Source: Plantactinospora endophytica
GTDB lineage: Bacteria > Actinomycetota > Actinomycetes > Mycobacteriales > Micromonosporaceae
Reading direction: 5' to 3'
DNA length: 64,000 nt
NCBI RefSeq assembly: GCF_016862915.1
Contig: NZ_BONW01000028.1
Span: forward strand, 434,001-498,000
In this document: piece after piece, positions 2,851 to 28,568 of the stretch
Layout: each line of letters opens with the position of its first letter
Position numbering within the stretch: position 1 is the first letter of the stretch
The notes under the pieces: generated by a model
Seen by the model: only the letters and a program-made list of their open reading frames with translations
Told to the model about the DNA's origin: nothing
Database searches by the model: none
Program-made: the position numbers and the translations under genes

Positions 2851-2955
2851 CCACGCTCGCCCACCGATCCCACTGCGGCGGCCTTCCGTAGCCGTCACGT
2901 TCGCCGTCCGTACCCGGTTCGGCGCCGCACGGCACCACTGATGACAGGAGCAGCC

Positions 2956-3747
2956 ATGAAGATCGACGTATTCGTCAGCAGCGACGACGACCAGGTCGCC
3001 GCCCAGCGGATCCTGGACGCCGTACCGAACGTGCCCGACACCGTGACACTCGTCGCCACGAACCTCTACGGCTCGACCCTCGACGGGGTTCCGGCGGTCG
3101 TCCTGCAGGTGATGCGGATCAAGCGGTCCGGCACCATGCCGCTGACCGTCGTCGACGACAAGCCCGTGCTCTCCGGCGAGTTGCCGACCGTCGAGCAGCT
3201 CACCGACTACATCACCAACGGCGTCGAGGCCGCCGCCGGCCTCGTCGACCGCGCCGACTCGGCGGTCGAGTTCGCCACCGCCAGCCGGATGCACATCAGC
3301 ATGTTCGTCAACAGCCTCGCGGAGAGCGTCAAGTTCTACGAGGTGTTCTTCGGCCAGCCCCCGACGAAGCACCTCGACGACTACGCCAAGTTCGAGGTCG
3401 CCGAGCCGCCCCTGGTGATCTCGTTCAACCCGGACCGCAAACCCACCTCCGGCGGCGCCGTCAACCACCTCGGCGTGCAGGTCAAGAGCACCGACATCGT
3501 CATGGCGATGAAGGAGCGGTTCGCCGCCGCCGGATTCCTCACCGACGAGGAGGTCGCCACCCCCTGCTGCTACGCCGTGCAGACCAAGGTGTGGGTCGGC
3601 GACCCCGACGGCAACCGGTGGGAGGTCTACGTCGTCACCGAGGCCGACGCCGACGAGGGCTGCGGACCGGACTGCGCCTGCTACGCCGAGATCGCCCCGA
3701 ACAGGGTGAGCAGCGACGTGTCGTCGAAGATGCCGGTCTCGGCGTGA
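2956..3747 (+). CDS. arsI: ArsI-type C-As lyase with ArsD-like N-terminal domain
   Basis: The 263-residue protein starts at ATG 2956, chosen over 2941 because AGGAG lies 6 bases upstream. Residues 1-90 are a thioredoxin-fold domain resembling ArsD (start MKIDVFVSSDDD, then PLTVVDDKPVLSGELP) without its Cys pairs. Residues 110-230 form a VOC/glyoxalase domain with the ArsI/CadI signature: His113, His171 (NHLGV), the vicinal pair Cys204-205 (TPCCYAV) and Glu223 (WEVYVV). These would bind Fe(II) and a trivalent organoarsenical. ArsI enzymes demethylate methylarsenite to As(III) using O2. A Cys-rich tail (GCGPDCAC) follows. The fused ArsD-like head is unusual and could deliver As(III). It sits between the Cys-pair protein and arsM. 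Confidence 0.85.
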   Translation: MKIDVFVSSDDDQVAAQRILDAVPNVPDTVTLVATNLYGSTLDGVPAVVLQVMRIKRSGTMPLTVVDDKPVLSGELPTVEQLTDYITNGVEAAAGLVDRADSAVEFATASRMHISMFVNSLAESVKFYEVFFGQPPTKHLDDYAKFEVAEPPLVISFNPDRKPTSGGAVNHLGVQVKSTDIVMAMKERFAAAGFLTDEEVATPCCYAVQTKVWVGDPDGNRWEVYVVTEADADEGCGPDCACYAEIAPNRVSSDVSSKMPVSA

Positions 3748-7030: not shown

Positions 7031-7216
7031 CGCATGCCGGCAGCACCGAGGTGCACGTGTGGTCCTTGGTGGACGCAGAACCCCAGCTGAAGGTGATCTT
7101 CGAAAGGACGACCTTCATCCGGGGTCCCGCGTCTCTGCCGCGCCACACCGATGCGGTGCGGCGCCGCACTTCCAACGGTCAGCTACCCAGTGTCACCCGC
7201 CCCTACCCGGGACGGT

Positions 7217-7675
7217 TCAGTGGGCGACCTGACCGTAGGTGTATCCGTCGCTGGTGAACTCCACGAAGAACGTCGTGTTGTCCCGCACGTCGGTGGCGAT
7301 GACCCGCCAGGTGCCGAGAGAACCTGGCACGTTGATGTCGAACGTCTTCCAGCCGTTGCACCAGCCGCCACCGGAGGAGGGCCGGAAACAGACGCGCGCC
7401 GACATGACGGAGCCACTGATGTGGGTCACCTTCAGGTTGATATCGGCGCATCGCGTCGAACTGCGGTAATAGGGGCGCGCGCCCCACCAGTCGTACGTGT
7501 CATCAACATCCGGTATGTACAAGGTGTCGCCGTCGTCGCCCACCCCGGCGTCCCAGTTGTACGCTCCTCCGTAGCAGCTGGTCGCGGCGCTCGCGGCGGT
7601 GGCGGGAACGAAGATGAGCGTGGCTGCACCGAGGACGACGAGCACGATCGCGGTCTTTGCGATCCTTCCCAACAT
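7217..7675 (-). CDS. small secreted protein, unknown
   Basis: The 152-residue protein has a clear signal peptide (IAKTAIVLVVLGAATLIF...ASAA). The mature part of about 120 residues is rich in aromatic residues and Gly/Asp, with four cysteines (SCYGGAY, RCADIN, VCFRP, WCNGW) that could form two disulfides. I do not recognise the family. It is convergent with the arsenic operon and divergent from the regulator at 7826. Nothing in it suggests arsenic chemistry. Confidence 0.7.
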   Translation of the reverse strand: MLGRIAKTAIVLVVLGAATLIFVPATAASAATSCYGGAYNWDAGVGDDGDTLYIPDVDDTYDWWGARPYYRSSTRCADINLKVTHISGSVMSARVCFRPSSGGGWCNGWKTFDINVPGSLGTWRVIATDVRDNTTFFVEFTSDGYTYGQVAH

Positions 7676-7825
7676 GACGATTCCTCCCTCGAAAGGCGTT
7701 GCTTGTTACGCCAGAGAGTCGGTCCGCCGACCGGGGGAGGCTACGTGTTTCGGGCACCGTCGAATATTCGGGCTACGCGTGTACCTTTGTCGTACCTACG
7801 GCTTGGCGATTTCGGGGGGATGGCC

Positions 7826-8887
7826 ATGCTCAGGATCTATTTCACCAGTGACGACATCGCCCGCACCCGTGTCGCGTCGGGGCCAGATCCGCTGTGGGAG
7901 TTGGTGCTGGCGCTACAGATGCTCCGGCCCCAGCGCGGCGATCTGTTGTTCACGAGCTGGCGGCAGGAGGCCACCGCGGCGCTGCGCCGCGCCGCCCTGG
8001 GCCCACCCCTGCGGCTCCTGCTCACGCTCACGCCGAACGTCGGCTACTTTCCCGACTTCCTCAACCCGGTCGAGGCGGCCCACGGGCTCGCGTACGGCCT
8101 GGAGGCGATCCGTCGTACGCCGAAGCACCTGCTGACCAGGGACGTACGCCGGCTGGCCCGCTCCCGGCCGCTGCCACCTCCCGTCCACGAGGTGGCGGCC
8201 GGGAGCCCGCAGATGCTCGTGGAGCTGACCGACACGATGCGCGCGTGCCACGAGATGATGGTGGAGCCGTACCGACGTCAGGTGGAGACGGCGGTCGACC
8301 GGGACCGTACGGTCCGCGTCAACGCCTTCCTCCGCGGGGGCGTCGAGGGCCTGCTGCAGAGCCTCTGGCCGTTCGCCCTGTGGTCTGCTGGCGAGCTACG
8401 GGTGCCGACCCACCGCCACCAGGAGATCCACCTGGGCGGCCGAGGGCTGCTGCTGATTCCGTCGTACTTCTGCGTCAGCGGACCGCTGACCTTGCTCGAC
8501 CCCGCGCTGCCGCCGGTGCTCAGCTATCCCGTCGAGCGTCACCCGGACGTCCTGCCGAGGCGGCAGCCCTTCAGACCTGAGGCTCTCAGCGCGCTCGTCG
8601 GCAACACCCGCGCCGCCGTCCTGGAGGCCATCGGCGCGAACCCCCGGACCACCGAGGAACTCGCCCGCCGGGTCGGCATCTCGCCCGGCTCCGCGAGCGA
8701 GCACGCTGGCGTCCTTCGCCGCGCCGGGCTGGTTCTCAGCCACCGCGACCGCCATCGGATGCAGCATCACCTCACCCCGTTGGGCCGTGCCCTGTTCGAG
8801 CACGGCACCGGCGGACCGTCCGCGACGTCGAAACATCCTCCTCCGGCAGCCACGCCGCCCGATCAGCGGAGCCGTGCCAGCCCGTGA
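7826..8887 (+). CDS. ArsR-type HTH regulator with long N-terminal domain (DUF5937-like)
   Basis: The 353-residue protein carries its winged helix at the C-terminus (about 255-325: AVLEAIGANPRTTEELARRVGIS...GLVLSHRD). This follows a long domain of the kind seen in actinobacterial DUF5937/ArsR-type regulators. ATG 7826 is preferred over 7820 because GGGGGG at 7814-7819 gives a better spacing. No metal-binding Cys motif is seen, so despite the location it is not an obvious arsenic sensor. It is convergent with the phnD-like gene at 8958. Confidence 0.7.
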   Translation: MLRIYFTSDDIARTRVASGPDPLWELVLALQMLRPQRGDLLFTSWRQEATAALRRAALGPPLRLLLTLTPNVGYFPDFLNPVEAAHGLAYGLEAIRRTPKHLLTRDVRRLARSRPLPPPVHEVAAGSPQMLVELTDTMRACHEMMVEPYRRQVETAVDRDRTVRVNAFLRGGVEGLLQSLWPFALWSAGELRVPTHRHQEIHLGGRGLLLIPSYFCVSGPLTLLDPALPPVLSYPVERHPDVLPRRQPFRPEALSALVGNTRAAVLEAIGANPRTTEELARRVGISPGSASEHAGVLRRAGLVLSHRDRHRMQHHLTPLGRALFEHGTGGPSATSKHPPPAATPPDQRSRASP

Positions 8888-8957: not shown

Positions 8958-9896
8958 TCAACTGCCGATCGGTCCGCACGCCTCGATCCGGGTGGCCTTA
9001 CAGGCGTCCCAGATGACCTGGTAGTAGGAGTGCTCGACCGGGAGATAGCCGTAGTCACGGTTGGAACTGACCAGGCAGGCGTCGCCCTTGCACCAGCCGC
9101 GCCCCTCCAGGTACTCGGAATTGATCTTCAAGGTGGCGGCGCGGATCTTGGTTCGTAGGTCGTCGGGCAGCGCGGACCGGGTGACCACGGGGGAGTGCGG
9201 TGCCCGGACCTGCCAGATCGACTTGAGTTCCCCCTCGGCGACGTCACCGGTCCGGATCGCGTTCTCCAGTTGAGCGTCCGCGACCAGCCCGATCTCGCAG
9301 TCGCCTCGCTTGACCGCACGCGGGATGGTGTTGCCGGCGGGGACGACGAGCCGCTTGAAGTCCTTGTCGGGGGCCAGGTTGGCCTTGGAGAACTCGAACA
9401 GCGGCAGCAGGGTGGAGGTCGAGGCGGGGTCGGGGAAGCAGACGGTCCTGCCCCGGAAGTCGTCCAGTGACGACAGCGTGCCCGACGCCTTGGTCACTCC
9501 GAGGACCACGTAGCCGGGCTGGTCGCCCTTGCGGTGCTGGAGCAGTCCGGTCGGCTCGATCTTCGCCCCGTTCTGCACGGCGAGGGCGTAGGAGAACGCG
9601 CCGAGTTGCGCCATGTCGACGGTCCCGGCGATGAGGGCCTCGATGACTCCCGCGTAGTCGGCGGCCTGGAACGTCTCCACCTTGACGCCGACCTCCTCGG
9701 ACAGGGCCTTGATGAACAGCCCGTAGTGGTCCTGGAAGGTGCTCGCCTCACCGGCGGGTACGGCCGCGAACACGATCTTGTCGGGCCAGCCGGTCTGCGA
9801 TTGACCCGACTCGTCATCGCCGCCGCCGCAGCCGCTGGTGGCGGTTACCAGCAGGACCGCCATCGCGGCCGTCACGATCCGACAAATTCGTGTCAT
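8958..9896 (-). CDS. PhnD-like substrate-binding lipoprotein (copy 1)
   Basis: The 312-residue periplasmic binding protein of the phosphate/phosphite/phosphonate (PhnD) type has lipobox TSGC near residue 23. The fold signature VETFQAADYAGVIEALIAGT and QLGAFSYALA is clear. Six mature cysteines are shared with copy 2 at 12596: VCFPDPAS, GDC, WC-KGDAC, DAC, EACGPIGS. The Cys in VCFPDP is notable because AioX, an arsenite sensor of the PhnD family, binds arsenite through a Cys; whether the position corresponds needs alignment. It sits last in its operon, 92 bases after phnC. Start ATG 9896 was chosen over GTG 9899 because of GAGGAG upstream. Confidence 0.85.
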   Translation of the reverse strand: MTRICRIVTAAMAVLLVTATSGCGGGDDESGQSQTGWPDKIVFAAVPAGEASTFQDHYGLFIKALSEEVGVKVETFQAADYAGVIEALIAGTVDMAQLGAFSYALAVQNGAKIEPTGLLQHRKGDQPGYVVLGVTKASGTLSSLDDFRGRTVCFPDPASTSTLLPLFEFSKANLAPDKDFKRLVVPAGNTIPRAVKRGDCEIGLVADAQLENAIRTGDVAEGELKSIWQVRAPHSPVVTRSALPDDLRTKIRAATLKINSEYLEGRGWCKGDACLVSSNRDYGYLPVEHSYYQVIWDACKATRIEACGPIGS

Positions 9897-9988
9897 CACT
9901 GCTCCTCACACAAGGCATGGTCAATCGGTCTGCGATCGCGCCGAGATCGCGGTGACGCGGCGCCTGGATAGGTCGGTCGTGCGGTGAC

Positions 9989-10861
9989 CTATTGGATGAG
10001 CTGTTGCGGGGTCGGGGACAGTGCGGCGAGGCCGTGGTCGTCCGGCTCGTCGGGCTGTGGGGTCTCGGGTGCGACGGGCACACCGTCGCGTTGGTAGACC
10101 TGCATCAGCTGCGGTCTGGTCAGGTCCCCGGTCGGCCGGTCCAGTACGGTGCGGCCCGCGCGCAGGCCGATGACCCGGTGCGCCCAGCCGAGCGCCATGT
10201 CGACCTGGTGGAGGCTGCAGATGACGGTGAGGTGTTCCTCGACGCAGATGCGGCGCAGGACGTCCATCACCTGGCCGGACGACTCCGGGTCGAGGGAGGC
10301 GACGGGTTCGTCGGCAAGTAGCAGCTGCGGTTGCTGCATGAGACTTCGCGCGATCGCGACCCGCTGCTGTTCGCCGCCGGAGAGGGTGTCGGCGCGTTGG
10401 AACGCCTTGTGGCCGAGGCCGACGCGGTCGAGGTGGTCGAGCGCGGTCTGGCGCAGGGTCTTGGAGTAGGTCGACACGCCGAGGCGGGGACCACGCAGCC
10501 GGCCGAGCGCGCCCGACAGGACGTTCTCCATGCAGCTGAGCCGGCCGACGAGGTTGAACTGCTGGAAGATGAAGCCGACCTGGCAGCGCAGGTGCCGGAT
10601 CGCGCGGGCGCGGGCGTGCACGACGTCGACGCCGAGTACCTCGACCGCGCCGTCGCTGGGCGTGTGCAGTCCGTTGAGCAACCTGAGCAGGGTCGACTTA
10701 CCCGACCCGGACAGTCCGATGACGGCGAGGAACTGGCCACGAGGCAGGTCGAAGGACACGTCGTCGAGTGCGGTGTGGTCGCCGAATCGTTTGGTGAGGT
10801 GCGCGACCCGGACGACAGGCACCGCCGTGCCGTCCGGTTGCGCGGCTGTCGGCCGGGTCAC
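9989..10861 (-). CDS. phnC: PhnC-like ABC transporter ATPase
   Basis: The 290-residue ABC ATPase has Walker A GLSGSGKST, a Q-loop in FIFQQFNLVGRLS, signature LSGGEQQRVAIARSL and Walker B LLLADEP. The NLVGRLSCMENVL stretch is typical of PhnC. It has a short Pro/Asp-rich C-terminal tail. It would energise the fused permease at 10858, whose stop overlaps its GTG start (GTGA at 10858-10861). Substrate is phosphonate-like oxyanions by family; arsenate, arsonate or organoarsenical is inferred from the location. Confidence 0.88.
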   Translation of the reverse strand: MTRPTAAQPDGTAVPVVRVAHLTKRFGDHTALDDVSFDLPRGQFLAVIGLSGSGKSTLLRLLNGLHTPSDGAVEVLGVDVVHARARAIRHLRCQVGFIFQQFNLVGRLSCMENVLSGALGRLRGPRLGVSTYSKTLRQTALDHLDRVGLGHKAFQRADTLSGGEQQRVAIARSLMQQPQLLLADEPVASLDPESSGQVMDVLRRICVEEHLTVICSLHQVDMALGWAHRVIGLRAGRTVLDRPTGDLTRPQLMQVYQRDGVPVAPETPQPDEPDDHGLAALSPTPQQLIQ

Positions 10862-12582
10862 AGGATCCTCTTCCTGATCATGTCGGAGAAGCGTTCGACG
10901 ACGAAGACGGTGACGAAGATGACGATGAGTACCGCGGCGGTGGTGTGGAACTGCAGCGTGTGCACGGACTGGTAGGTGATGAAGCCGATCCCGCCGGCAC
11001 CGACGATCCCGACGATCGTCGACGAGCGGATGGTGCTGTCGAGGGTGAACAGCGTGGTGGCCACGAACGACGGCGCGACCTGCGGTACGACGCCGGTGGT
11101 CGCTTGTTGGACGCGGGTCGCGCCGACCGACCGGAGTGCGGCCCGGGGCCCTGGGTCGAGGTGCTCGATCGCGTCGGCCATCAGTTTCGCGGTAAGCCCG
11201 ATCGACCCGAGGCCGAGCGCGATCACGCCGGCGAACGGTCCGAGACCGAACGCGGAGACGAAGATCAGCGCGAGAACCAGTGGTGGCAGCCCTCGGGACA
11301 GGACGATGACCAGCCGGGCCGCGTGGTAGACGACCGGGTGCGGGGCGACGGGGCGGGCGGCGAGGAACGCGATCGGCAGGCTCAGCGCGGTCGCCAGCGC
11401 GGTGGCGCAGACGGCGATGGTGAGTGTCTCGACGATTGCCGGTCCCAGGTCGTCGCGGACGGAGGCGAAGTCCGGCGGCAGGAATGTCCCGATGCTGGCG
11501 ACGAGTTCGGGGATGGCCCGGAGCAGAGCGCCTGGGCTGATGCCGAGACCGGCGAAGCTGACCAGGGCCAGCCCGGCGGCCGACAGGACGGCGATCTGCC
11601 GGGTCAGCCGGGCCCGGGTCCACGGGGGACTGAGCCGGGGACGCCCGGTCGCTGGCGGTCGGTCGCGGGCTGGCCGGCGGGAGCGACGTCGTTCCCGGGC
11701 GGAGTGCTCGTGGGCGAGGATGCTGGCCCGGATCGCGGCGGAGATCCGTTCGACGATCACGACCAGGGCGATGATGATCAGTGCGAGGCCGAGGCCGCGC
11801 TGGTACTGGAGGGTGCGCAGGGTGTTGTAGAGCTCGAAGCCGATCCCGCCGGCGCCGACGAAGCCGAGCACGGCGGAGGCGGCGACGTTCATGTCCAGCC
11901 GGTACAGGGTGGTGGACACGAACGACGGCAGCACCTGGGGGACGACGCCGGTCATGATCGCCTGGAGGCGGGTCGCACCGACGGTCGCCACGGCGTGGTG
12001 GACGTCGTCGTCGACCTCCTCGATGGCGTCGGCGAACAGTTTGCCGATCATGCCGGTGGAGTAGATGGCGACGGCGAGTACGCCGGGCAGCACGCCGACA
12101 CCGAGGACCCGGACGAAGATCAGGGCATATACGAGATCGGGGATCGACCGGGCGCCGAGGATGATCGCCCGGGCGACGGCCCGTACGGCGGGGGACGGGG
12201 CCGTGTTGGCGGCGGCGAGGAACGACAGCGGCAGGGACAGCAGCAGCGCGAGGGCGGTCCCGGCGACCGCCATCATCAGCGTGTCGAGGATCGGGCCGAC
12301 GACGCGGGACGGCTGCGGCATCTCGACCGGCAGCATTCGGCCGAGCAGGTTGCCCAGGTCCGCCCAGCCGTCGATCAGACGCTGCGGGTCGACACCCACC
12401 TGACGGGTGCTGACCACGATCGCGAGTACGGCTCCGGCAGCAGCGGCGAGGCCCACGATCCGGTTGCGGGTCCACGGCGGTCGTAGCGCACGTTTGTCGG
12501 TCGCCGCGCCTGCCGGTGTCGGCTCGGCTTGGGCGGTGGTGGCGAGGTCGGGGCGTTCGGCGCTGTTCGTCGGTGTGGTCAT
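10858..12582 (-). CDS. phnE: fused PhnE-PhnE permease
   Basis: The 574-residue protein is two complete PhnE permease units in one chain. Each has about six membrane segments and an ABC-coupling loop with VVPQV-PSFV-TTL, near residues 205-225 and 485-505. Phosphonate permeases usually work as homodimers or as separate phnE1/phnE2 genes, so this fusion encodes both halves of the channel. The linker is Arg/Pro-rich. ATG start at 12582, 14 bases after the phnD copy-2 stop, and GTGA overlap with phnC. Confidence 0.88.
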   Translation of the reverse strand: MTTPTNSAERPDLATTAQAEPTPAGAATDKRALRPPWTRNRIVGLAAAAGAVLAIVVSTRQVGVDPQRLIDGWADLGNLLGRMLPVEMPQPSRVVGPILDTLMMAVAGTALALLLSLPLSFLAAANTAPSPAVRAVARAIILGARSIPDLVYALIFVRVLGVGVLPGVLAVAIYSTGMIGKLFADAIEEVDDDVHHAVATVGATRLQAIMTGVVPQVLPSFVSTTLYRLDMNVAASAVLGFVGAGGIGFELYNTLRTLQYQRGLGLALIIIALVVIVERISAAIRASILAHEHSARERRRSRRPARDRPPATGRPRLSPPWTRARLTRQIAVLSAAGLALVSFAGLGISPGALLRAIPELVASIGTFLPPDFASVRDDLGPAIVETLTIAVCATALATALSLPIAFLAARPVAPHPVVYHAARLVIVLSRGLPPLVLALIFVSAFGLGPFAGVIALGLGSIGLTAKLMADAIEHLDPGPRAALRSVGATRVQQATTGVVPQVAPSFVATTLFTLDSTIRSSTIVGIVGAGGIGFITYQSVHTLQFHTTAAVLIVIFVTVFVVERFSDMIRKRIL

Positions 12583-12595
12583 CGAACAGGTTCGC

Positions 12596-13546
12596 CTAGC
12601 TGCCGATCGGGCCGCAGGCATCGATCCGGGTGGCCTCGCACGCGTCCCAGATGACCTGGTAATAGGTGCCGTCGATCGGGATGAAGCCATAGTCGCCGCT
12701 GGCGCTGATCAGACAGGCGTCCCCGGTGCAGAAGCCCTGCTGCTCGAGGTATTCGGCGTTGATCCGGTTGGTCGCTTCTCGGACCTTGTTCCGCAGGTCC
12801 TGCGGAAGTTCGGTCCGGGTCGCCAGCGGGGATCCCGGGGCCCGGACCTCCCAGACGACCTTGAGGTCGTTCTGCTTGACGTCACCCTGGCGGATCGCGG
12901 ACTCGAGTTGGGCCTGTGAGGCGAGGCCGACCTGACAGTCGCCGCGCTTGACGGTGCGGGGGATGGTGGCGCCGGCCGGCACGGTCAGCCGTTTGAAGTC
13001 CTTGTCGACGGTCATGCCCGCCTTGTGGAACTCGAACAGCGGAATGAGGGTGGTGGTGGAGGCCGGGTCGGGGAAGCAGACGGTCTTGCCGCGGAAGTCG
13101 GCGAAACCCTTGATGGCGCTCGAGGTCGGCACCATGCCGTAGATGACGTAGCCGGCCTGGTCACCCTTGGCATGGATACGGACACCAGACGGTTCGATCT
13201 TCGCCCCGTTCTGCACCGCGAGGGCGTACGAGAACGCGCCGAGCTGTGCGACGTCAACGGTTCCGGCGATCATCCCCTCGATGACGCCGGCGTAGTCCGC
13301 GGCCTGGAACGTCTCGATCTTGATGCCGACGTCCCGGGACAGCGCCTTGACGAAGGGCCCGTAGTCGTCGTCGAAGGTGCGGGCCTCACCGCTCGGCGTC
13401 GCCGCGAAGACGATCTTGTCGGGCCAGTCGTTCGCGTTCGTGCCGTTGGCCGGCTCCTCGGAGTCTCCGCCGCAGCCGGCAGTGGCGAGCGCTATCGCGG
13501 TCATGACGGCCAGCAGTCGCAGTTTCCTGGTGCGCGGTGTCGTCAC
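12596..13546 (-). CDS. phnD: PhnD-like substrate-binding lipoprotein (copy 2)
   Basis: This 316-residue paralogue of the protein at 8958 has lipobox TAGC. The same ligand-pocket motifs (ETFQAADYAGVIEG, QLGAFSYALAVQNGAKIEP) and the same six mature cysteines are present. GTG start at 13546 follows a GGGGG ribosome site. It is directly before the fused permease, as in standard phnD-E-C order. Two binding proteins for one channel suggest a broadened substrate range. Confidence 0.88.
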   Translation of the reverse strand: MTTPRTRKLRLLAVMTAIALATAGCGGDSEEPANGTNANDWPDKIVFAATPSGEARTFDDDYGPFVKALSRDVGIKIETFQAADYAGVIEGMIAGTVDVAQLGAFSYALAVQNGAKIEPSGVRIHAKGDQAGYVIYGMVPTSSAIKGFADFRGKTVCFPDPASTTTLIPLFEFHKAGMTVDKDFKRLTVPAGATIPRTVKRGDCQVGLASQAQLESAIRQGDVKQNDLKVVWEVRAPGSPLATRTELPQDLRNKVREATNRINAEYLEQQGFCTGDACLISASGDYGFIPIDGTYYQVIWDACEATRIDACGPIGS

Positions 13547-13732: not shown

Positions 13733-14716
13733 CTACTGGAAGACGCCGGGCGCTGGCGCGATGGTTTCCTCGGTCGTGATCCGGACGGCTTCGGCCCTCG
13801 TCGGCGCCCGCTGGGTGACGACCGGATAGCCGTCGACCACCGTCAACGGCAGCGGGCAGGACTCCTTGAGTCGCCACAGGGCCACGACGACGTCCGGGAA
13901 CTCGTCCGGACGGTCGTTGGACAGCACGCGGATCTGAAGCCGGTCCTGCGGTGGCTCGTCGAGTTCGTCGAAGACCGCCCGGGCCGCCCGCGCCTCGTCG
14001 TCGGACTTGACGTAGACGACGATGCCCTTCATGTCGTCGCCGAGACTGGCGCGGCGACTCTCCTCCCACGGCAGCGCCATCGTCGCCATCGGATGGGCGG
14101 GGTCGATGGGCCGGTGATCGCAGCCCAGGTACTGCTCGTCGATGAGCAGTTGGCCGTAGGCGAACTCGGTCGGTCGCAGCCAGTCGTCGGCCCCACCCGG
14201 CCCGTACACCCAGTACTTCTCGGCCACCTGCGTGTGCGCCCCGTAGACAGGTCGTCCGGGTCCGCCCTGCCGGACGCTGCGCCACTGGGCGTGTGCGGCG
14301 ATCGTGGGTATCTCGTCGAAGCTGCGCCGGGTCCGGGTGTCCTCAGTGCGCATGTCGACCCCGAAGTGGTCGACGAAGGGCCTCGGTAGGGTGGCCGCGC
14401 CCTTGATCAGGTCGTCCTGGGCGATGGGGAACGACGAGAAGATGACGTTCAGATCACCAGGCAGTCGGTACTTGACGTAGCCGGGGGCCTTCCACCGTTC
14501 CAACTGTCCCCGGGTGCGCAGTTCCTGATGCGGCAGGTCGGACAGGTCGTCGAGCTTGACGTGGATGTGGACGGACTCGGCGCTGGACACGGCACCGGTG
14601 AACTCGAAGTCGTCGCCGACGAGCATCAGCAACTGCTCGGGTTCACGGCGGGAGAGGAGTTGACGGCGTACGAGGTACTCCAACTCCGGTTCGAGAACCG
14701 CCTGGTCGAAAGGCAT
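13733..14716 (-). CDS. paralogue of the island Cys-pair protein, without Cys pairs
   Basis: The 327-residue protein resembles that at 1792-2850 along its N-terminal domain (DHFGVDMR, KYWVY, PTEFAYGQL...YLGCDHRPIDPAHP). The CC pair is replaced by GRPVYG. The C-terminal thioredoxin-like domain (KGIVVYVKSDDEARAAR... PLPLTVVDGYPVV) is closest in sequence to the ArsD-like head of the ArsI enzyme at 2956, and it lacks the CC tail. ATG 14716 follows GGGGAGG. As first gene of the phn-like operon, it ties that operon to the arsenic operon. Its function is unknown. Confidence 0.6.
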   Translation of the reverse strand: MPFDQAVLEPELEYLVRRQLLSRREPEQLLMLVGDDFEFTGAVSSAESVHIHVKLDDLSDLPHQELRTRGQLERWKAPGYVKYRLPGDLNVIFSSFPIAQDDLIKGAATLPRPFVDHFGVDMRTEDTRTRRSFDEIPTIAAHAQWRSVRQGGPGRPVYGAHTQVAEKYWVYGPGGADDWLRPTEFAYGQLLIDEQYLGCDHRPIDPAHPMATMALPWEESRRASLGDDMKGIVVYVKSDDEARAARAVFDELDEPPQDRLQIRVLSNDRPDEFPDVVVALWRLKESCPLPLTVVDGYPVVTQRAPTRAEAVRITTEETIAPAPGVFQ

Positions 14717-19797: not shown

Positions 19798-20166
19798 CAG
19801 ACGGTGGGGCTCAGCCTGATCGACATCGACGCGGGAGCGTCCTGCTGTGTGCCGATGAGCGAGCAATCGATACCGGCCGAGACCGCCGCAGTGCTCGCGC
19901 CGGCGTTCAAGGCGCTCGGTGATCCCGTACGGCTGCAGCTGATGTCGATGATCGCCTCGGCGCCCGGCGGCGAGATCTGCGTCTGCGACCTCACCCCGGC
20001 GTTCGACCTGTCCGGGCCGACGATCTCCCATCACCTCAAGACCCTGCGCGAGGCCGGTCTCGTCGACGCCGAGCGCCGACGTACCTGGGTGTACTACCGG
20101 GCCCGGCCGGGAGTCATGCGCCAGCTCGCGACCCTGCTCAACATTCAGCCCACGACCGACGTGTAA
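19789..20166 (+). CDS. arsR: ArsR-family arsenite-responsive repressor
   Basis: The 125-residue winged-helix repressor has an As(III) site EICVCDL (Cys64 and Cys66), the classic ArsR ELCVCDL type. A further Cys pair lies at 19-20 (ASCCVP). DNA-recognition helix LSGPTISHHLKTLREAGLV follows. Start ATG 19789 lies inside its own operator. It is divergent from the small Cys-pair/M28/ArsN1/ArsO operon and is the best candidate for controlling both TTAGA-N22-TCTAA sites. Confidence 0.92.
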   Translation: MSKQTVGLSLIDIDAGASCCVPMSEQSIPAETAAVLAPAFKALGDPVRLQLMSMIASAPGGEICVCDLTPAFDLSGPTISHHLKTLREAGLVDAERRRTWVYYRARPGVMRQLATLLNIQPTTDV

Positions 20167-22425: not shown

Positions 22426-22458
22426 CCGGTAGGCGGCCCGGGTGGGGCCGCCTACCGG
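22426..22458. terminator. bidirectional hairpin terminator
   Basis: A perfect 13-bp stem (CCGGTAGGCGGCC with its complement) encloses a 7-base loop, with no U-tract. It lies 10 bases past the stop of the peptide gene on the minus strand and between that operon and arsC on the plus strand, so it can end both. Confidence 0.7.
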
Positions 22459-22467
22459 GGGGCTGCC

Positions 22468-22590
22468 TCAGACGTCGCAGGCGCCGACGCACGCGCACGG
22501 CGGCTCGATGAGGCCGCCGGCGACGGTCTCGAGCTCGTCGTCGCTGACCTCGAGGACCTCCACGTCAATCTCGACGTTGGTCTTCTCCAT
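22468..22590 (-). CDS. double-glycine-leader peptide precursor (bacteriocin/RiPP-like)
   Basis: This 40-codon gene has an excellent ribosome site: AAGGAGGTG at 22605-22597, 6 bases before ATG 22590. The acidic leader ends in ELETVAGG (residues 19-26), matching the C39-peptidase recognition motif ELxxVxGG. Cleavage after Gly26 would release a 14-residue core, LIEPPCACVGACDV, with three cysteines. It starts 5 bases after the stop of a C39-peptidase exporter and is followed at once by a hairpin terminator. No modifying enzyme is adjacent. The core might be disulfide-linked, modified elsewhere, or bind metal or As(III) through Cys-x-Cys. I do not recognise a known family for the core. Confidence 0.85.
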   Translation of the reverse strand: MEKTNVEIDVEVLEVSDDELETVAGGLIEPPCACVGACDV

Positions 22591-22595
22591 GGTTG

Positions 22596-24836
22596 TCACC
22601 TCCTTCCCGCTGCTCGTGGGCGGATCTCCGCCGTCGCGCCGCCGGCGTCTGGGGACGACGGGGCGGCGGTGACGGCGGATGGTGGCTCTCCCAGTTGCGC
22701 GGCGACCAGATCGGCGTAGCGGCCGGCGCGGTCGAGTAGTTCGCTGTGGGTGCCGTGCTCGCTGACCTGGCCCTGGTGCAGGACGACAATGAGATCGGCG
22801 TCGCGGACCGTACTGAGCCGGTGCGCGATGATGATCTGGGTACAGTCCAGGACGGCGAGGTTGCGGTGGATGGCGGCCTCGGTGACGGCGTCGAGGTGAC
22901 TGGTGGCCTCGTCGAGCAGCAGCAGCCGGGGCCGGTGTACCAGCGCGCGGGCGATGGCCATTCGCTGGCGTTGCCCGCCGGACAGACCGCCGCCGCGTTC
23001 GGTGAGGCGGGTGCGATAGCCCAGCGGCATCGCGATGATCTCGTCGTGCAGGCAGGCCAGCGAGGCGGCGTGCTCGATCTCGGCCTGACCGACGGCGGCG
23101 TCGTGGAAGGCGATGTTCTCGCTGATGGTGCCGGCGAACAGGGCCGGCTCCTGCAGGACCGTGCCGACCTGCCGGCGCAGCGCGCGCAGGTCGAGTGCGG
23201 TCAGGTCGGTGCCGTCGACGGTGACGCGGCCGGCAGTCGGCTGGTGCAGACCGAGGAACAGCAGCGCCAGTGTGGATTTTCCGGTGCCGGACGGGCCGAC
23301 GATCGCGGTGCGGGTGCCGGGCGTGATGGCCAGGTTGATGTCGTGCAGGACCGGTGGGCTGTTGGTGTCGTAGCGGAAGGCGACGTCGTGCAGTTCGATA
23401 CGGCCGGCGGCATTGGGGATGGTGGCGGTGGAGGTGTTGTTGGCCGGTTCCGGTGGTGTGTCGAAGACGTCGGCGAGCCGTTGCAGTTGCGCGCCCGCGT
23501 GTTGCAGGCGTTGCCCGTTCGCGGCCAGGACCGCGAGCGGGACGACGACCGCGGCGGCCAGCCAGGTGAGGGCGATCGCGGTACCGGCGGAGAGCTGTCC
23601 CGAGGCGAGGCGGGTGGCGCCGAGCCAGAGGACCAGCAGCGGTGTCAGGGTCCGCAGTGCGGTGGAGGCGGTGTCGAGGACCGCGGTGAGGTGGTTGCGG
23701 GAGATGACCGCCCGGATCCAGGTCAGGAACAGCACCGACCAGCGGGCCTGGGCGCGGTCCTCAGCCGCTGCGGCCTTGATGGTGGTCATGCCCTCGACCG
23801 TTTCGGTCATCCGGCCGTACGCCTGGGCCTGGGCGGACAGTTCGGTGGACATCCGGTCCCGGGCCAGCGGCAGGGTGATGGCCAGCAGCGCGACCTGGGC
23901 GGCGATGACGACCGTGACCACGATGGTGACCGGCAGGTCGATGGTGGCCATGACGGCCAGGTAGATCCCGATCACGGCGAGGTCGAGCGCGGCCGTCAGC
24001 GTCTGGGCGGTGAGGACGTCGCGCAGGATGCCGATGCTGGAGGCCCGCAACATGATGTCGGCGGCGCTGCGACGCTGGAAGTAGGCCAGCGGCAGGGCCA
24101 GCAGATGGGCGCTGAAGCTGACCATCGCATGGGTGTCGAGGCGCCCCTGCAAATAGATGATCAACGCGGACCGCAGGTAGCTGCTGACGAGATGGGCGGC
24201 GAAGACGACGGCCACGCCGATGCCGAGCAGGGTGAGTACCGACGTGGTCGGCGTCGGGGCGAGCCGGTCGACGACGATTCCCGCCAGCAGTGGCAACGCC
24301 AGGCCCAGCAGTTGCAGCACCGCGCTGACCGCGACGAGTTGTACGGCGGCGAGTCGGCTGCCGGGCAGCCGGAACAGCGCTTGTAGGTAGCGTCGCCAGA
24401 ACGGTGCGGTCGACGGCGGCCGGCTGATGAAGTCGGGGCCGGGACGTGCGGCGAGCAGGACCTGGCCGCTGCCGGCATCGAACTCGTCCATGCTGATCCG
24501 GCGACGGCCGCGGGCGGGGTCGGCCAGGTGTACTCGGCCCCGGTGCACGCGGTCGACGACGACGAAGTGGTCGCTGCCCCAGTGCGCCACCACAGGTAGC
24601 GGCAGCTTGGCGAGCAGACCCGGCGCGGCGCGGTAGGCCTTGACGGTCAGGCCCACGCTACGGGCGGCGCGGGCGAGGGCGGCGGCGGTCGCGCCGTCAC
24701 GTCCGGCGGGGCACAGCTGTGCGGCCTCCCGCAGGGACAGGTGGTGACCGTGGCCGGTGGCGATCATGGCCAGGCAGGCGGGGGCGCACTCGGTGTCGCT
24801 GCCCTGCAGCACCAGCGGTACCCGGACCCGGGTCAC
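22596..24836 (-). CDS. peptidase-containing ABC exporter (C39 peptidase-TMD-NBD)
   Basis: The 746-residue protein begins with a C39 peptidase (1-130). Gln11 and Cys17 (QGSDTEC-APACLAMI), a His in HWGSDHFVVVDRV and Asp in LADPARG form the expected catalytic set. A six-helix exporter domain (about 165-430) follows, then an ABC ATPase with VGPSGTGKSTL, LSGGQRQRMAIARAL and LLLLDEATSHLD. Such PCATs cut double-glycine leaders and export the core; the matching substrate is encoded 5 bases downstream. GTG start at 24836 overlaps the upstream gene's stop (GTGA). Confidence 0.92.
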   Translation of the reverse strand: MTRVRVPLVLQGSDTECAPACLAMIATGHGHHLSLREAAQLCPAGRDGATAAALARAARSVGLTVKAYRAAPGLLAKLPLPVVAHWGSDHFVVVDRVHRGRVHLADPARGRRRISMDEFDAGSGQVLLAARPGPDFISRPPSTAPFWRRYLQALFRLPGSRLAAVQLVAVSAVLQLLGLALPLLAGIVVDRLAPTPTTSVLTLLGIGVAVVFAAHLVSSYLRSALIIYLQGRLDTHAMVSFSAHLLALPLAYFQRRSAADIMLRASSIGILRDVLTAQTLTAALDLAVIGIYLAVMATIDLPVTIVVTVVIAAQVALLAITLPLARDRMSTELSAQAQAYGRMTETVEGMTTIKAAAAEDRAQARWSVLFLTWIRAVISRNHLTAVLDTASTALRTLTPLLVLWLGATRLASGQLSAGTAIALTWLAAAVVVPLAVLAANGQRLQHAGAQLQRLADVFDTPPEPANNTSTATIPNAAGRIELHDVAFRYDTNSPPVLHDINLAITPGTRTAIVGPSGTGKSTLALLFLGLHQPTAGRVTVDGTDLTALDLRALRRQVGTVLQEPALFAGTISENIAFHDAAVGQAEIEHAASLACLHDEIIAMPLGYRTRLTERGGGLSGGQRQRMAIARALVHRPRLLLLDEATSHLDAVTEAAIHRNLAVLDCTQIIIAHRLSTVRDADLIVVLHQGQVSEHGTHSELLDRAGRYADLVAAQLGEPPSAVTAAPSSPDAGGATAEIRPRAAGRR

Positions 24837-25000
24837 GGCAGCCGTCCGGTGATCGCGGTGAGCAGGACGGTGGCCACGGCGGCGAGCACGACCAGCATGG
24901 TCCACAGCAGGCCGAGGAACCGGGGTCGTACGGTGCGTGGAAACAGGTCCGCCTGCGGGTCGTCGAGCACGCGCTGACCGTGGTCACCGAACATCGGCAT
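24833..25000 (-). CDS. small membrane protein coupled to the peptide exporter
   Basis: A reading frame of 55 residues (from ATG 25000; up to 88 if started at 25099) ends in one hydrophobic helix, FLGLLWTMLVVLAAVATVLLTAITG. Before it is FGDHGQRVLDDPQADLFPRTVRPR, resembling the N-terminal anchor of HlyD-type secretion proteins of peptide exporters. If so, the periplasmic part has been lost. Its stop overlaps the exporter start. The exact start is unclear, as no candidate has a convincing ribosome site. Confidence 0.55.
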   Translation of the reverse strand: MPMFGDHGQRVLDDPQADLFPRTVRPRFLGLLWTMLVVLAAVATVLLTAITGRLP

Positions 25001-25233
25001 ACCGCCATCACCGTCGCCGAACCAACCTGGCCGGAGACAGAAACGTCCTTTGTGGTTCTGTGGCGTCGCCAACCCGCTCATGCCTGCCTTCCGCCGCACC
25101 GGCGATCAGTCGGTGGCAGCACTGTCACCTATCGGTCACGACCGAACCGTGACGTGGGCGTGACGTCGCCATAACGAACCGCAGGCTTTGTCCGGGAAAG
25201 ACCGGAAATAGATGTGAAAAAATATCAGGCTAT

Positions 25234-25250
25234 CCTGTTGTATCGACAGG
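25234..25250. promoter_or_regulatory. inverted repeat CCTGT-N7-ACAGG before the SARP gene
   Basis: A 5-bp inverted repeat sits in the AT-rich 80 bases between the divergent exporter operon and the SARP/CmtR-like pair. A TATCCT element at 25231 could serve as a -10. It is a reasonable operator for the CmtR-like repressor or the SARP; no binding is shown. Confidence 0.4.
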
Positions 25251-25278
25251 GGTGACAAACGCACAGCGGAGGTCGCGG

Positions 25279-26064
25279 ATGACGGTCACGGCACCGCACG
25301 ATCACTTCCTACCGTCGGGCGAGGGCAGCACACTGACACTGCGGCTGCTGGGCCGCTTCGACGTGACCGGAGTGTCCGCCACCGCGCTGGGCGCGGCCGG
25401 GCAGCGGCTGCTGGCGCTCGTCGCCGTCAACGGGGGAGTCCTGGCACGTTGGCAGGCGGCCCAGGCGCTGTACCCGACGGCGACCGACGCGAACGCCGCG
25501 TCGAACCTGCGCGCCCTGCTCTGGCGGCTGCAACGACACTGCCCCGCGCTGCTGCGGACCTCCGCCACCGACCTGAGACTCGCACCCCAGGTACGGGTCG
25601 ACTACCTGATCGCCGTCACCACCGCCCGCCGCCTGCTGACCCCACCCGCCACCACCACCGCACAACCCATCCTCGACGTCGCCGCACAACTGCGCGAAGA
25701 CCTGCTGCCGGGCTGGCCGGAGCCGTGGCTGGTCCACGAACGCGAACGCTTCCACCAGCTACGCCTGCACGCACTCGAAGCACTGTGCACCCAGCTCAGC
25801 TTCGCCGGCCGGCACGGCGACGCGGTCGACGCGGGACTGGAAGCCGTACGGGCCGATCCGCTGCGCGAGTCCGCCCGCCGGGTCCTCATCGACGCCTACC
25901 TGGACGAGGGCAACGTCAGCGAGGCGCTACGCCAGTACCAGGCGTTCGCCGCCGTCCTGCACGCCGAACTCGGTTTGCAGCCCACCCCGGCACTGCAACG
26001 ACGGCTACGGCCCCGCACGCCGATCGGCCCCACCGACGCCACCGTGACGGAGTCCGGATCATGA
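25279..26064 (+). CDS. SARP-type transcriptional activator (winged helix plus BTAD)
   Basis: The 261-residue protein has an N-terminal OmpR-like winged helix (about 18-105) followed by a bacterial transcriptional activation domain (about 110-250: RERFHQLRLHALEAL..., DPLRESARRVLIDAYLDEGNVSEALRQYQAF). SARPs switch on natural-product operons in actinomycetes. It is divergent from the peptide exporter, supporting a specialised-metabolite role. ATG 25279 follows GGAGG (25268-25272). Its stop overlaps the next gene (ATGA), so the pair is co-translated. Confidence 0.88.
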   Translation: MTVTAPHDHFLPSGEGSTLTLRLLGRFDVTGVSATALGAAGQRLLALVAVNGGVLARWQAAQALYPTATDANAASNLRALLWRLQRHCPALLRTSATDLRLAPQVRVDYLIAVTTARRLLTPPATTTAQPILDVAAQLREDLLPGWPEPWLVHERERFHQLRLHALEALCTQLSFAGRHGDAVDAGLEAVRADPLRESARRVLIDAYLDEGNVSEALRQYQAFAAVLHAELGLQPTPALQRRLRPRTPIGPTDATVTESGS

Positions 26065-26447
26065 CGGCACCCGTCGTTCCGCAGGTCGAGGCCATGCCGG
26101 TCTGCGGACCGGCCGACTGCGGGCCGCCGGGCCAGAGCGCCCGCACCCGCTGGTTCCAGATGCTGGCCGACCCCACCCGCATGGCCATACTGACGCTGCT
26201 GCTCACCGGTCCGCACCACGTCGGACAGATCGTCGCCGCGACCGGGCTGCCGCAGAGCCGGATCTCCAACCACCTGGCCTGCCTGCGCACCTGCCGCCTG
26301 GTCGTAGCCGAACGGCAGGGGCGACGCGTGCTCTACCGCATCGTCGATCCCCGACTCCGCCTGCTGCTCGACCTCGCCGACGCCCTCGCCGCCGCCAGCA
26401 CCGACCTGGCCGACTGCGGCGCCGTCGACCCCGACACCTGGACCTGA
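26061..26447 (+). CDS. CmtR-like ArsR-family metalloregulator
   Basis: The 128-residue winged-helix protein has recognition region SRISNHLACLRTCRLV with Cys74 and Cys78, and Cys119 near the C-terminus. That is the Cys57/Cys61/Cys102 pattern of mycobacterial CmtR, which senses Cd(II)/Pb(II). Two extra cysteines (CGPADC, 15 and 20) lie near the start. It overlaps the SARP stop by ATGA, so a metal or metalloid signal may set expression of the peptide system and the Mo enzyme that follows. Confidence 0.82.
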   Translation: MTAPVVPQVEAMPVCGPADCGPPGQSARTRWFQMLADPTRMAILTLLLTGPHHVGQIVAATGLPQSRISNHLACLRTCRLVVAERQGRRVLYRIVDPRLRLLLDLADALAAASTDLADCGAVDPDTWT

Positions 26448-26522: not shown

Positions 26523-28568
26523 TTGGCGACCAGAAGGGTACGTGGAGCCTGCCCGCACGACTGCCCCGACCGGTGCAGCTGGATCGTCACCGTCGACGAC
26601 ACCGGCACCGCCGTGGCCCTCAACGGCAACCCCGATCATCCACTCACCGCCGGCCGGCTGTGCACCAAGGTCAACGGCTACCTCCACGACCGCGTCTACA
26701 GCCCACACCGCATCACCCGTCCACTGCGCCGAACCGGCCCCAAAGGATCCGGAGAGTTCGCCCCGATCGGCCTGGACGAAGCCCTCGACGAGATCGCCAC
26801 CCGGCTGACCGGCATCGCCGCCGCCGACGGACCCGCGGCGATCATCCCGTTCAGCTACGAAGGCACCCAGGGCCTGCTCCAGTCCAAGTCGATGAGCGAA
26901 CGGTTCTTCGCCCGCCTCGGCGCCGCCGAAGTCGGCCACACCATCTGCGGCCCGACCGGCGGAGCCGGACTGTCGGCGGTCAACGGCTTCACCGTCGGCG
27001 TGCTGCCCGAAGACGCCGTCCACGCCAACCTGATCATCGTCTGGGGGGCGAACCCACTGGTGACCAACCAGCACCTGTGGGCGGCGATGCTCTCCGCCCG
27101 CTCCCGCGGGGCGCGCATCGTGGTCATCGACCCGGTCGCCACCCGCACCGCCCACGCCGCCGACCGACATCTGATGCCCCGGCCCGGCACCGACGCCGCC
27201 CTCGCCCTCGGCATCGCCCACCTCCTCATCACCGACGACCTCGTCGACCACGAGTTCATCGCCGCGCACACCACCGGGTTCGACGAACTCGCCACCGCTG
27301 CGGCGGACTTCACCCCCGACCGCACCGCCGACATCACCGGCATCGCCGAGTCCGACATCCGCACCCTCGCCGCCGACTATGCCGCGGCCCGGCCGGCGCT
27401 GATCCGCCTCATGGTCGGCATGGAACACCACACCAACGGCGCCGCCCTCTACGCCGCCATCGCCGCCCTACCCGCGCTGACCGGTATGTGGCGCCACCAC
27501 GGCGGCGGGATCGCCTACCACACCTCGCCACTGTTCAACCGGTCCCTCAACCTCGACGGTCTGCGGATGGCACACCTGGCACCCGGACCGCGCCGACGCA
27601 TCAACATGGTGCAGCTCGGTCAGGCCCTCACCGACCCGCACAGCGACCCGCCCGCACGGGCCCTGATCGTGCACGGCAGCAACCCGGCGGTCATCGTGCC
27701 CCGCCAGCCCCTCGTCCGCCAGGGTTTGGCCCGCGACGACCTGTTCACCGTCGTGCACGAGCACGTCCTCACCGACACCGCCCGCTACGCCGACATCGTC
27801 CTGCCCGCCACCACCCAACTCGAACACCTCGACCTGATGAAGTCCTGGGGCCACACCGACCTCATGCTCAACCTGCCCGCCATCGCCCCGCCCGGCGACG
27901 CGATCAGCGTCACCGACCTGTTCCGCGACCTCGCCACCCGCATGGGCTTCACCGAACCCTGCTTCACCGACACCGACGACGACCTGCTCGCCACCGCCCT
28001 GAACTCCGCCCACCCGTACCTGCACGGCATCACCCTCGACCACCTGCGCGAAAACGGCTGGCAACGCCTCAACCTCCGCACCCCACACACCCCGTACGCG
28101 GCCGGGTTTCCCACCCCCGACAACCGGGCCCGCCTGCACACCGCCGCCCGCGCCGCCGCGACCGCGCTTCCACCCCCGGCAGACCCCCGCTGGCCGCTGC
28201 AACTACTCAGCGTCAAAGGCCTACGGTCGATGAACTCCACCTACGCCGACACCACACAGTGCGCCCGCGACGGCGGCCCCTGGCTCGACCTGCACCCCGA
28301 CGACGCGGCCGCCCGCGCGATCAACGACGGCGACCCGATCGAGGTCCACAACCAGCACGCCACCATCACCCTGCACGCCCGCGTCAGCACGCGGGTCCGG
28401 CCGGGAGTGGTGGCGATCATGTTCGGCACCTGGAGCGGCACCCGTGCGGGCGACCGGGGTGCAGCGGCGAACCTGCTCACCCCGGACACCCTCACCGACG
28501 GCGGCGGGTCCGCGTTTCACGACACCTATGTCGACGTAAGACGGTGCGAGCTGTCGATGCAGGTGTGA
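26523..28568 (+). CDS. molybdopterin oxidoreductase, cytoplasmic
   Basis: The 681-residue DMSO-reductase-superfamily enzyme has a 4Fe-4S motif ACPHDCPDRC plus a fourth Cys (LCTKVNGY). A Cys in VGHTICGPTGG is at the expected Mo-ligand position. The C-terminal molybdopterin-dinucleotide-binding domain (about 565-681) is complete. There is no Tat signal, unlike the enzyme at 1-1214. TTG start at 26523 follows GGGGGA. It lies 75 bases after the CmtR-like gene. The substrate is unknown; sulfur or metalloid oxyanions and formate-like substrates are possible. It differs from the Tat enzyme by lacking an export signal and extended N-terminus. Confidence 0.88.
   Translation: MATRRVRGACPHDCPDRCSWIVTVDDTGTAVALNGNPDHPLTAGRLCTKVNGYLHDRVYSPHRITRPLRRTGPKGSGEFAPIGLDEALDEIATRLTGIAAADGPAAIIPFSYEGTQGLLQSKSMSERFFARLGAAEVGHTICGPTGGAGLSAVNGFTVGVLPEDAVHANLIIVWGANPLVTNQHLWAAMLSARSRGARIVVIDPVATRTAHAADRHLMPRPGTDAALALGIAHLLITDDLVDHEFIAAHTTGFDELATAAADFTPDRTADITGIAESDIRTLAADYAAARPALIRLMVGMEHHTNGAALYAAIAALPALTGMWRHHGGGIAYHTSPLFNRSLNLDGLRMAHLAPGPRRRINMVQLGQALTDPHSDPPARALIVHGSNPAVIVPRQPLVRQGLARDDLFTVVHEHVLTDTARYADIVLPATTQLEHLDLMKSWGHTDLMLNLPAIAPPGDAISVTDLFRDLATRMGFTEPCFTDTDDDLLATALNSAHPYLHGITLDHLRENGWQRLNLRTPHTPYAAGFPTPDNRARLHTAARAAATALPPPADPRWPLQLLSVKGLRSMNSTYADTTQCARDGGPWLDLHPDDAAARAINDGDPIEVHNQHATITLHARVSTRVRPGVVAIMFGTWSGTRAGDRGAAANLLTPDTLTDGGGSAFHDTYVDVRRCELSMQV

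Follow-up and report, generated by a model that had tools for sequence, protein, structure and literature searches.

Does a short peptide gene with its own peptidase-exporter, found among arsenic-type genes of Plantactinospora endophytica, take part in metal(loid) handling, or does it serve another purpose? The locus was studied in a stretch of 64,000 nucleotides (assembly GCF_016862915.1, contig NZ_BONW01000028.1, positions 434,001 to 498,000 of the forward strand). This whole stretch is called the window, its own coordinates are used throughout, and the genome of the window is denoted G000. As judged from sequence analysis, a peptide-export operon of a small gene (the stub), a C39 peptidase ATP-binding cassette (ABC) exporter and a double-glycine (GG) precursor gene diverges from the genes for a SARP regulator, a CmtR-like ArsR and a molybdopterin oxidoreductase, inside an arsenic island. 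The precursor is very probably a genuine exported GG peptide. That the exported product is a metal(loid)-linked thiol peptide, acting by the mechanism outlined below, was assigned a probability of about 40%. Related peptides were found in a genome of a different genus (G350) and in two genomes with more distant members (G213 and G370). The features of the locus are as follows.

22468 to 22590, minus strand: GG-leader precursor gene, 40 aa plus stop (open reading frame with homologues in G350, G213 and G370)
22590 to 22513, minus strand: leader MEKTNVEIDVEVLEVSDDELETVAGG, double-glycine type
22512 to 22471, minus strand: core LIEPPCACVGACDV, 14 residues with three Cys, after the GG
22596 to 22605, minus strand: perfect Shine-Dalgarno sequence AAGGAGGTGA, kept in G350
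22596 to 24836, minus strand: C39 peptidase ABC exporter (Pfam Peptidase_C39, ABC_membrane and ABC_tran over cut-off; 90% in G350)
24833 to 25000, minus strand: stub, about 55 aa with one hydrophobic stretch (by eye), a conserved partner of exporter and GG peptide
22426 to 22458, minus strand: 3' hairpin, perfect 14-bp stem and 5-nt loop, with a compensatory pair in G350
25001 to 25278: divergent control region between the stub operon and the SARP gene
25279 to 26064, plus strand: SARP-type regulator with BTAD domain (86% in G350)
26061 to 26447, plus strand: CmtR-like ArsR, overlapping the SARP gene by ATGA, with CLxxC and a C-terminal Cys (81% in G350)
26523 to 28568, plus strand: molybdopterin oxidoreductase of the formate dehydrogenase/DMSO reductase superfamily (86% in G350)

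The precursor is encoded from 22590 to 22471 on the minus strand, the stop codon reaching 22468, and its product is MEKTNVEIDVEVLEVSDDELETVAGG followed by LIEPPCACVGACDV. An earlier note, made from the sequence alone, had claimed a 40-codon gene with the leader motif ELETVAGG and a 14-residue core, and this was borne out by the open reading frame, the perfect Shine-Dalgarno sequence and the conservation of the frame in G350. The spacing of 5 bases that it gave between exporter and peptide is also right: AAGGAGGTGA ends 5 bases upstream of the peptide ATG, and its last three bases (TGA) are the exporter stop codon. The decamer has two occurrences over both strands of the 64-kb window. In the core, which is devoid of Ser, Thr and Lys, the cysteines are Cys6, Cys8 and Cys12 (CxCxxxC); the calculated [M+H]+ is 1389.6211 in the reduced form, 1387.6054 with one disulfide, 1461.5192 for the As(III) adduct and 1501.5088 for the 114Cd adduct. 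Neither the peptide nor the stub exceeded the cut-off of any Pfam or NCBIfam family model. Sub-threshold scores were obtained for the leader against the Pfam Type-A lantibiotic model (17.5 bits, cut-off 21.7, E 0.0039) and for the peptide, in its leader only, against the NCBIfam CTB family bacteriocin (NF038167; 19.5 bits, cut-off 32, E 0.00084).

The C39 peptidase ABC exporter claimed beside the peptide was recovered with all three Pfam domains over cut-off. Its best NCBIfam model was TIGR03796 (573.7 bits, cut-off 853.3). Two corrections to the earlier note were made: the exporter starts with GTG at 24836, overlapping the stub stop codon (GTGA), and a second small gene (24833-25000), which was not listed, is part of the operon. 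For this stub no Pfam match was obtained, and no NCBIfam match for a longer reading of 88 aa. Stub searches covered the fetched stretches, and homologues were found in G350 (78%), in G213 (40% over 30 aa) and, by profile, in G370 (E 1.8e-8), which mark it as a conserved partner of exporter and GG peptide. In a class-level exporter survey, 394 genomes of other class members were searched and 20 loci fetched, and in 10 of these a small hydrophobic frame ends at the exporter start. The stub profile recovered 8 of the 10 at E 0.17-4.4, interleaved with other frames, in a search space of 21,998 frames from partly overlapping loci; the class-level likeness is therefore weak in sequence and clear in position. 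An exporter scan of genome contigs was uninformative (13 loci, mostly proteobacterial, with full-length matches at 31-33%), and the best exporter match in plasmid records was from Nonomuraea gerenzanensis (45%). Upstream of the stub, at 25001-25081 on the minus strand, a conserved Shine-Dalgarno-like stretch with an ATG (MSGLATP...) was observed; the frame runs into the stub frame in the window and ends separately in G350, and is a possible leader ORF (open reading frame) or alternative start.

Among 354 family genomes, G350 is the only other one with the same core, its peptide being 84% identical over 37 residues. Peptide, exporter, stub, SARP, CmtR-like ArsR and molybdopterin oxidoreductase are syntenic there, and four DNA blocks of about 11.6 kb in total are 85-87% identical to the window. 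The G350 leader carries six replacement codons within positions 3 to 18 and is one codon shorter. The 21 codons from ELETVAGG through LIEPPCACVGACD differ by two silent changes and zero replacements; the C-terminal end differs. The earlier note had named loss of leader or core with the exporter kept as evidence against its claim, and the opposite was seen, as G350 keeps the exporter (90%), the leader and the core. Its proposal that homologous short frames be sought near C39 exporters of relatives likewise led to the G350 peptide, which lies beside its exporter.

The hairpin noticed earlier at the gene end was found to fold with -33.9 kcal/mol (z -5.2 versus 200 shuffles), and a G-C to A-U exchange on both arms in G350 supports the stem. 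A U-tract is absent, and a terminator scan for T-tails made no call at 22426-22458; the hairpin is a probable U-less terminator, as read from its sequence. In the divergent control region, the promoter scan gave no sigma-70 match. A candidate imperfect inverted repeat at 25124-25153 (GTCAC...GTGAC) is weak, with the outer GTCAC/GTGAC kept in G350 and the inner arms partly so, and was rejected as operator because it is too weak for the call.

Queries with the window peptide were run against its own genome, 61 relatives including self, 7 congeners including self, 354 family genomes and 397 order genomes (partly the same ones). The own genome returned the self match only. Rows were obtained in 18 of the 61 relatives (E <=10), in 9 family genomes (E <=0.2) and in 6 order genomes (E <=0.1), and besides self only the matches in G350 and G213 were accepted. 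Rows in the family genomes G028 (2), G155, G179, G184, G348 and G372 and a second row in G350 were dropped on ORF context, as were eight rows of the 61 relatives, the remainder of which were dropped on alignments alone; the order-genome rows of G442 and G600 were dropped on alignments, those of G385 and G468 for weak profile scores. One of the 7 same-genus genomes was matched, which was self, so the peptide locus is accessory. Plasmid records contained no match to the window peptide or the G370 peptide, and viral contigs none to the G213 peptide. When the surroundings of 22 exporters, that of G350 among them, were scanned for GG motifs, the G350 peptide was recovered, along with a few longer precursors belonging to other types of ribosomally synthesized and post-translationally modified peptides (RiPPs).

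In G213, a stub-like protein stands directly before a second GG peptide, MAQVEAELSALEMTDEELARVFGG-YVEPVDSECPPEIASVDYSTSESVVL, near a weak match of the window peptide (E 0.06). The G370 peptide was missed by every single-query search and was recovered with a profile of three peptides, together with a profile of three stubs: the stub (E 1.8e-8) is followed, 15 bases past its stop, by MIETLEMSESELAAVFGG-EPTIGNDTIEEPPCEEAMEM (E 5e-4). GGAGGTGA precedes the peptide ATG in both genomes. The four cores have an acidic residue, Pro and Cys in common (EPPC, EEPPC, ECPP; by eye). The gene order in G213 and G370 is a radical S-adenosylmethionine (SAM) protein with CUAEP/CCAEP tail, an ankyrin-like gene on the opposite strand, stub, peptide, ArsR and a nonribosomal peptide synthetase (NRPS)-type gene, the ankyrin-like and NRPS-type labels being assigned by eye. 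G213 alone has one extra gene between peptide and ArsR, which gave no NCBIfam match and which we take to be DUF169. Its radical SAM protein scored 625.5 bits against NF040546 (CUAEP/CCAEP, cut-off 500). CUAEP proteins were found in three of six genomes tested (G213, G370 and G375), and the 19 kb around the ArsR and CUAEP genes of G375 contained no recognisable GG peptide or stub. NRPS-type clusters (by eye) with a CUAEP/CCAEP radical SAM and a CmtR-type ArsR were observed at four loci, L034 (G213), L173 and L158 (G370) and L162 (G375), and are candidates for the source of arsenic-containing nonribosomal products.

The exporter was matched at 1e-10 in 91 of the 354 family genomes, the four best being G000, G350, G213 and G370; the ArsR clade (E 1e-22) occurs in six, namely these four, G375 and G377. 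The overlap has a hypergeometric probability of 2.3e-8 (1.4e-6 without G350), where the cut at four was chosen afterwards and the genomes are not independent, so that shared ancestry inflates the figure. In G377, a SARP homologue (47%) shares a 4.2-kb contig with the ArsR-clade gene. The claim of a SARP and a CmtR-like ArsR opposite the operon held up, as the BTAD domain was found and, among solved structures, CmtR Rv1994c came closest in sequence to the ArsR; the CmtR model NF047906 gave 77.2 bits (cut-off 150). CLRTC of this ArsR aligned to CLRGC of 2jsc, and its C-terminal end carries DCG; which Cys residues serve as CmtR ligands was assumed here. Nine aligned ArsRs of these loci all contain CLxxC, and eight a C-terminal Cys. 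Molybdopterin oxidoreductases recur beside arsenic-type genes, at 26523-28568 and 6-980 of the window and at 6007-8043 of locus L169, where a 66% paralogue adjoins an ArsD-like protein; these are possible unrecognised arsenic redox enzymes.

Arsenic-type genes occupy 1 to 22 kb of the window: ArsI/CadI (140 bits, cut-off 116), ArsM (284, cut-off 263), a flavoprotein weakly like ArsO (54 of 425 bits), arsR, an ArsR-phosphatase fusion, a MIP channel and an ArsC-type protein with the LMWPc domain over cut-off and 102 of 215 bits for the arsenate reductase model. The earlier note had placed the locus beside an arsenic island; the island is present, and the peptide locus lies inside it, not merely beside it. 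Its reading of the peptide as a possible bacteriocin or secreted metal or As(III) binder is supported in part. The arsenic or metal link proved stronger than claimed, with an arsenic-type block conserved in G350 and an ArsL-related radical SAM protein next to the G213 and G370 pairs. The block common to the window and G350 comprises PhnD/E/C, an ArsI-fold protein, ArsRs and the molybdopterin oxidoreductase, and in G350 an ArsI/CadI (144 bits, over cut-off) lies at a distance of about 10 kb from the peptide. Further features of this part are listed here.

8958 to 13546, minus strand: PhnD, PhnC, PhnE and PhnD-type importer genes (88-91% in G350)
13733 to 14716, minus strand: protein without family match, ArsI-like in its model, with an ArsD-like tail by eye (88% in G350)
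19855 to 20166, plus strand: ArsR with CVC motif (90% in G350, where it is the next recognised gene past the peptide hairpin)

For the protein at 13733-14716, the structure model (pLDDT 71, pTM 0.63) matched ArsI C-As lyase at PDB ranks 1 to 13 (E 3e-6 to 1.5e-4, 17-19% identity), followed by other enzymes of VOC-type fold. The same matchless family recurs at 1792-2850 of the window, at 10726-11706 of locus L033 and at 2097-3152 and 10349-11047 of L169. One member was checked against Pfam, two were checked against NCBIfam and one was modelled; an ArsD-like or thioredoxin-like tail (by eye) is present in four of the five. Judging from the model, the family looks like an undescribed arsenic enzyme. 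In addition, the ArsI/CadI proteins at 2956-3747 of the window and at 1213-2004 of L169 are preceded in one chain by an ArsD-like domain (by eye) and have a Cys-rich tail, CGPDCACYAE. At 5870-7030 lies a relative of the arsinothricin-type ArsM (347 bits, cut-off 500), although a search of the genome for a radical SAM protein of CUAEP/ArsL type was negative.

At the level of sequence, the coding frame, the leader, the exporter, the conserved stub, synteny and a repeated association with ArsR and arsenic-type genes were established. In the proposed mechanism, the C39 domain would cut after Gly26 and the 14-residue core would be exported, with the stub as a small exporter partner, perhaps an HlyD-type adaptor reduced to its N-terminal anchor. 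The ArsR would sense thiophilic metal(loid)s and, together with the SARP, control the divergent promoters. Through the thiols of its CxCxxxC motif, the exported core would bind trivalent arsenic or another ion of comparable thiophilicity, or act together with it, as a chelator that works outside the cell or is co-exported. The motif is similar to CxCxxC, the arsenic site of ArsR from E. coli. A functional link of the peptide to metal(loid)s is judged an even bet, and thiol chelation as the actual mechanism is tentative and leans towards the doubtful. A farther-reaching version appears improbable: the GG peptide, stub and C39 exporter would form a family devoted to arsenic chemistry, with the peptide as an exported carrier of trivalent arsenic, holding inorganic As(III) in the three-thiol CxCxxxC site of the window and G350 peptides, in the manner of ArsR proteins, while the single Cys of the G213 and G370 peptides may carry the arsenical of the ArsL-related radical SAM protein. 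If this were true, the cell would secrete a ribosomal arseno-peptide, for detoxification or as a weapon.

Several observations weigh against a thiol peptide tied to metal(loid)s. The 21 unchanged residues are expected about once in 9 cases at the 90% identity of the exporter, and the three-Cys core occurs in two genomes only, in one syntenic block. The G213 and G370 cores carry one Cys each, leaving three Cys in two of the four members, which excludes three-thiol chelation as a function common to all. In G370, about 67 kb of one contig separate the exporter from the stub-peptide pair, and in G213 the two are on different contigs; for these two genomes we infer the pairing. The G213 radical SAM protein stays below the cut-off for ArsL (NF040542, 291.9 bits, cut-off 450), and the CUAEP protein was found in none of G000, G350 and G377, which complete the six genomes tested. 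The island is a mosaic, and the cassette of ArsR-LMWP, channel and ArsC is absent between arsR and peptide in G350. The ArsR clade also occurs in NRPS-type clusters, where it may regulate the pathway. The strongest objection comes from the distant G213 and G370 members: with a single Cys each and a place in NRPS-type clusters, they could point to antibiotic production under ArsR-type regulators as what unites the family.

Other explanations were weighed against the same evidence. The peptide could be a small RiPP, modified at Cys, Glu or Pro by an enzyme whose gene lies at another place in the genome and then exported as an antibiotic or metallophore. Relatives of the exporter do occur in modified-peptide clusters (the ATP-grasp loci L130 and L148, and LanM-like loci by eye), and the G213 and G370 peptides adjoin a radical SAM enzyme. 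As the earlier note had claimed, however, neither the genes scanned around the peptide nor the conserved block yielded a recognisable modification enzyme, and the CUAEP radical SAM is absent from G000 and G350 (the search did not extend to YcaO or to other radical SAM enzymes in trans); this gap need not mean an unmodified peptide. The absence of Ser, Thr and Lys from the core rules out lanthionine and graspetide bonds. A modification by MNIO in trans was considered and rejected: the sole such gene (PF05114) lies on another contig in G000 and about 37 kb away in G350, and in both genomes it follows a TetR-type gene and one for a membrane protein with Gly/Cys tail (by eye), in the same unrelated gene order, which makes its nearness to the G350 peptide a coincidence. 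Taken together, the RiPP explanation was considered rather unlikely.

An unmodified bacteriocin- or toxin-like peptide, directed against competitors and produced under the SARP regulator, is less probable still, although the exporter is dedicated, a SARP is present and the leader has sub-threshold likeness to the Type-A lantibiotic and CTB families. SARP regulators are typical of antibiotic clusters. No immunity gene was recognised, the core has only 14 residues, which is very short for class II bacteriocins, and it is the same in two genera, while bacteriocin cores usually diversify. A signalling pheromone exported by the C39 transporter would agree with the conserved core, the regulator genes opposite, and a peptide size and leader that resemble GG signal peptides; the Cys-rich core is unusual for this role, no receptor kinase or Rgg-type receptor was recognised among the conserved genes, and this possibility is thought improbable. 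Equally little weight was given to an orphan remnant, that is, a non-functional operon derived from a RiPP cluster after loss of its modification genes. It would explain the missing adjacent enzyme and the occurrence of the core in only two of the 354 family genomes, but two genera retain the frame, the Shine-Dalgarno sequence and the hairpin, the last with a compensatory change. If the arsenic link is real, this would be the first ribosomal peptide that has a dedicated peptidase-exporter and is connected with the handling of arsenic; we know of no earlier example. The signature of stub, GG peptide and ArsR, with or without a CUAEP radical SAM, is minable for arsenic-linked natural products, and the calculated core mass is a concrete search target.

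Among the known systems, class II lanthipeptide loci (LanM/LanT) share the GG leader and the C39 exporter, and several exporter relatives in the family adjoin LanM-like genes (by eye). A lanthipeptide was rejected, as lanthionine is impossible without Ser and Thr, no LanM was recognised and the leader remained under the Type-A cut-off; the CTB family bacteriocins were rejected because the precursor is below the NF038167 cut-off. NHLP export (TIGR03796) is the best NCBIfam exporter model, but the equivalog cut-off was missed, a nitrile-hydratase-like leader is absent and no full HlyD partner was seen. Actinobacterial graspetide-type loci (L130 and L148 scanned; L131, L134, L140 and L141 by eye) have exporters with full-length identities of about 42-47%, similarly shaped GG leaders and the small hydrophobic protein ending at the exporter start that was seen in half of the fetched class-level loci. 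Unlike the window locus, where no ATP-grasp was seen among the genes scanned in the block, they contain an ATP-grasp ligase (Pfam over cut-off in L130 and L148). In these two, the MvdD pre-ATP-grasp domain is over its Pfam cut-off and TIGR04187 gave 238 and 230 of 350 bits. A graspetide was rejected on the core composition and the missing ATP-grasp. GG peptides downstream of C39 exporters, tandem in three loci and with cores such as RPRILVIEVGGTQIDPPGVCVED, were also observed at L141, L147, L148 and L149, among which an ATP-grasp gene was verified in L148 only. At L143 (4167-4552, minus strand), a C39 exporter is followed by two GG peptides in tandem that carry repeated NYDW motifs; inspection by eye showed no modification gene in the vicinity.

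Bufferins and other MNIO-made metallophores are, in the available part of PMC12452194, likewise ribosomal peptides tied to metal stress; here, an MNIO gene is absent from the block and export is of the C39/GG type. With the arsinothricin cluster arsQML the locus has in common a window ArsM of that type and an ArsL-related radical SAM protein next to the G213 and G370 peptides. ArsL is described as moving the aminocarboxypropyl group of SAM onto As(III), and the cluster, as given in the accessible portion of the source, is without GG peptide or C39 exporter (PMC8552651); a CUAEP/ArsL-type gene, in turn, was not found in the window genome. Peptidase-containing ABC transporter (PCAT) systems and GG peptides have precedents, and so do C39 exporters in ATP-grasp loci, as far as the consulted excerpt of PMC8939145 describes them, and an arsenic-linked GG peptide was not found in the literature searched. 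The closest likeness of layout was to the PCATs with double-glycine peptides: C39, transmembrane and ATPase domains are over cut-off in one fused exporter, and the precursor is adjacent, in the same operon, with an acidic leader ending in GG. The window locus differs from them in its 14-residue core with three Cys, the conserved stub, the CmtR-like ArsR and SARP encoded opposite, and the arsenic setting.

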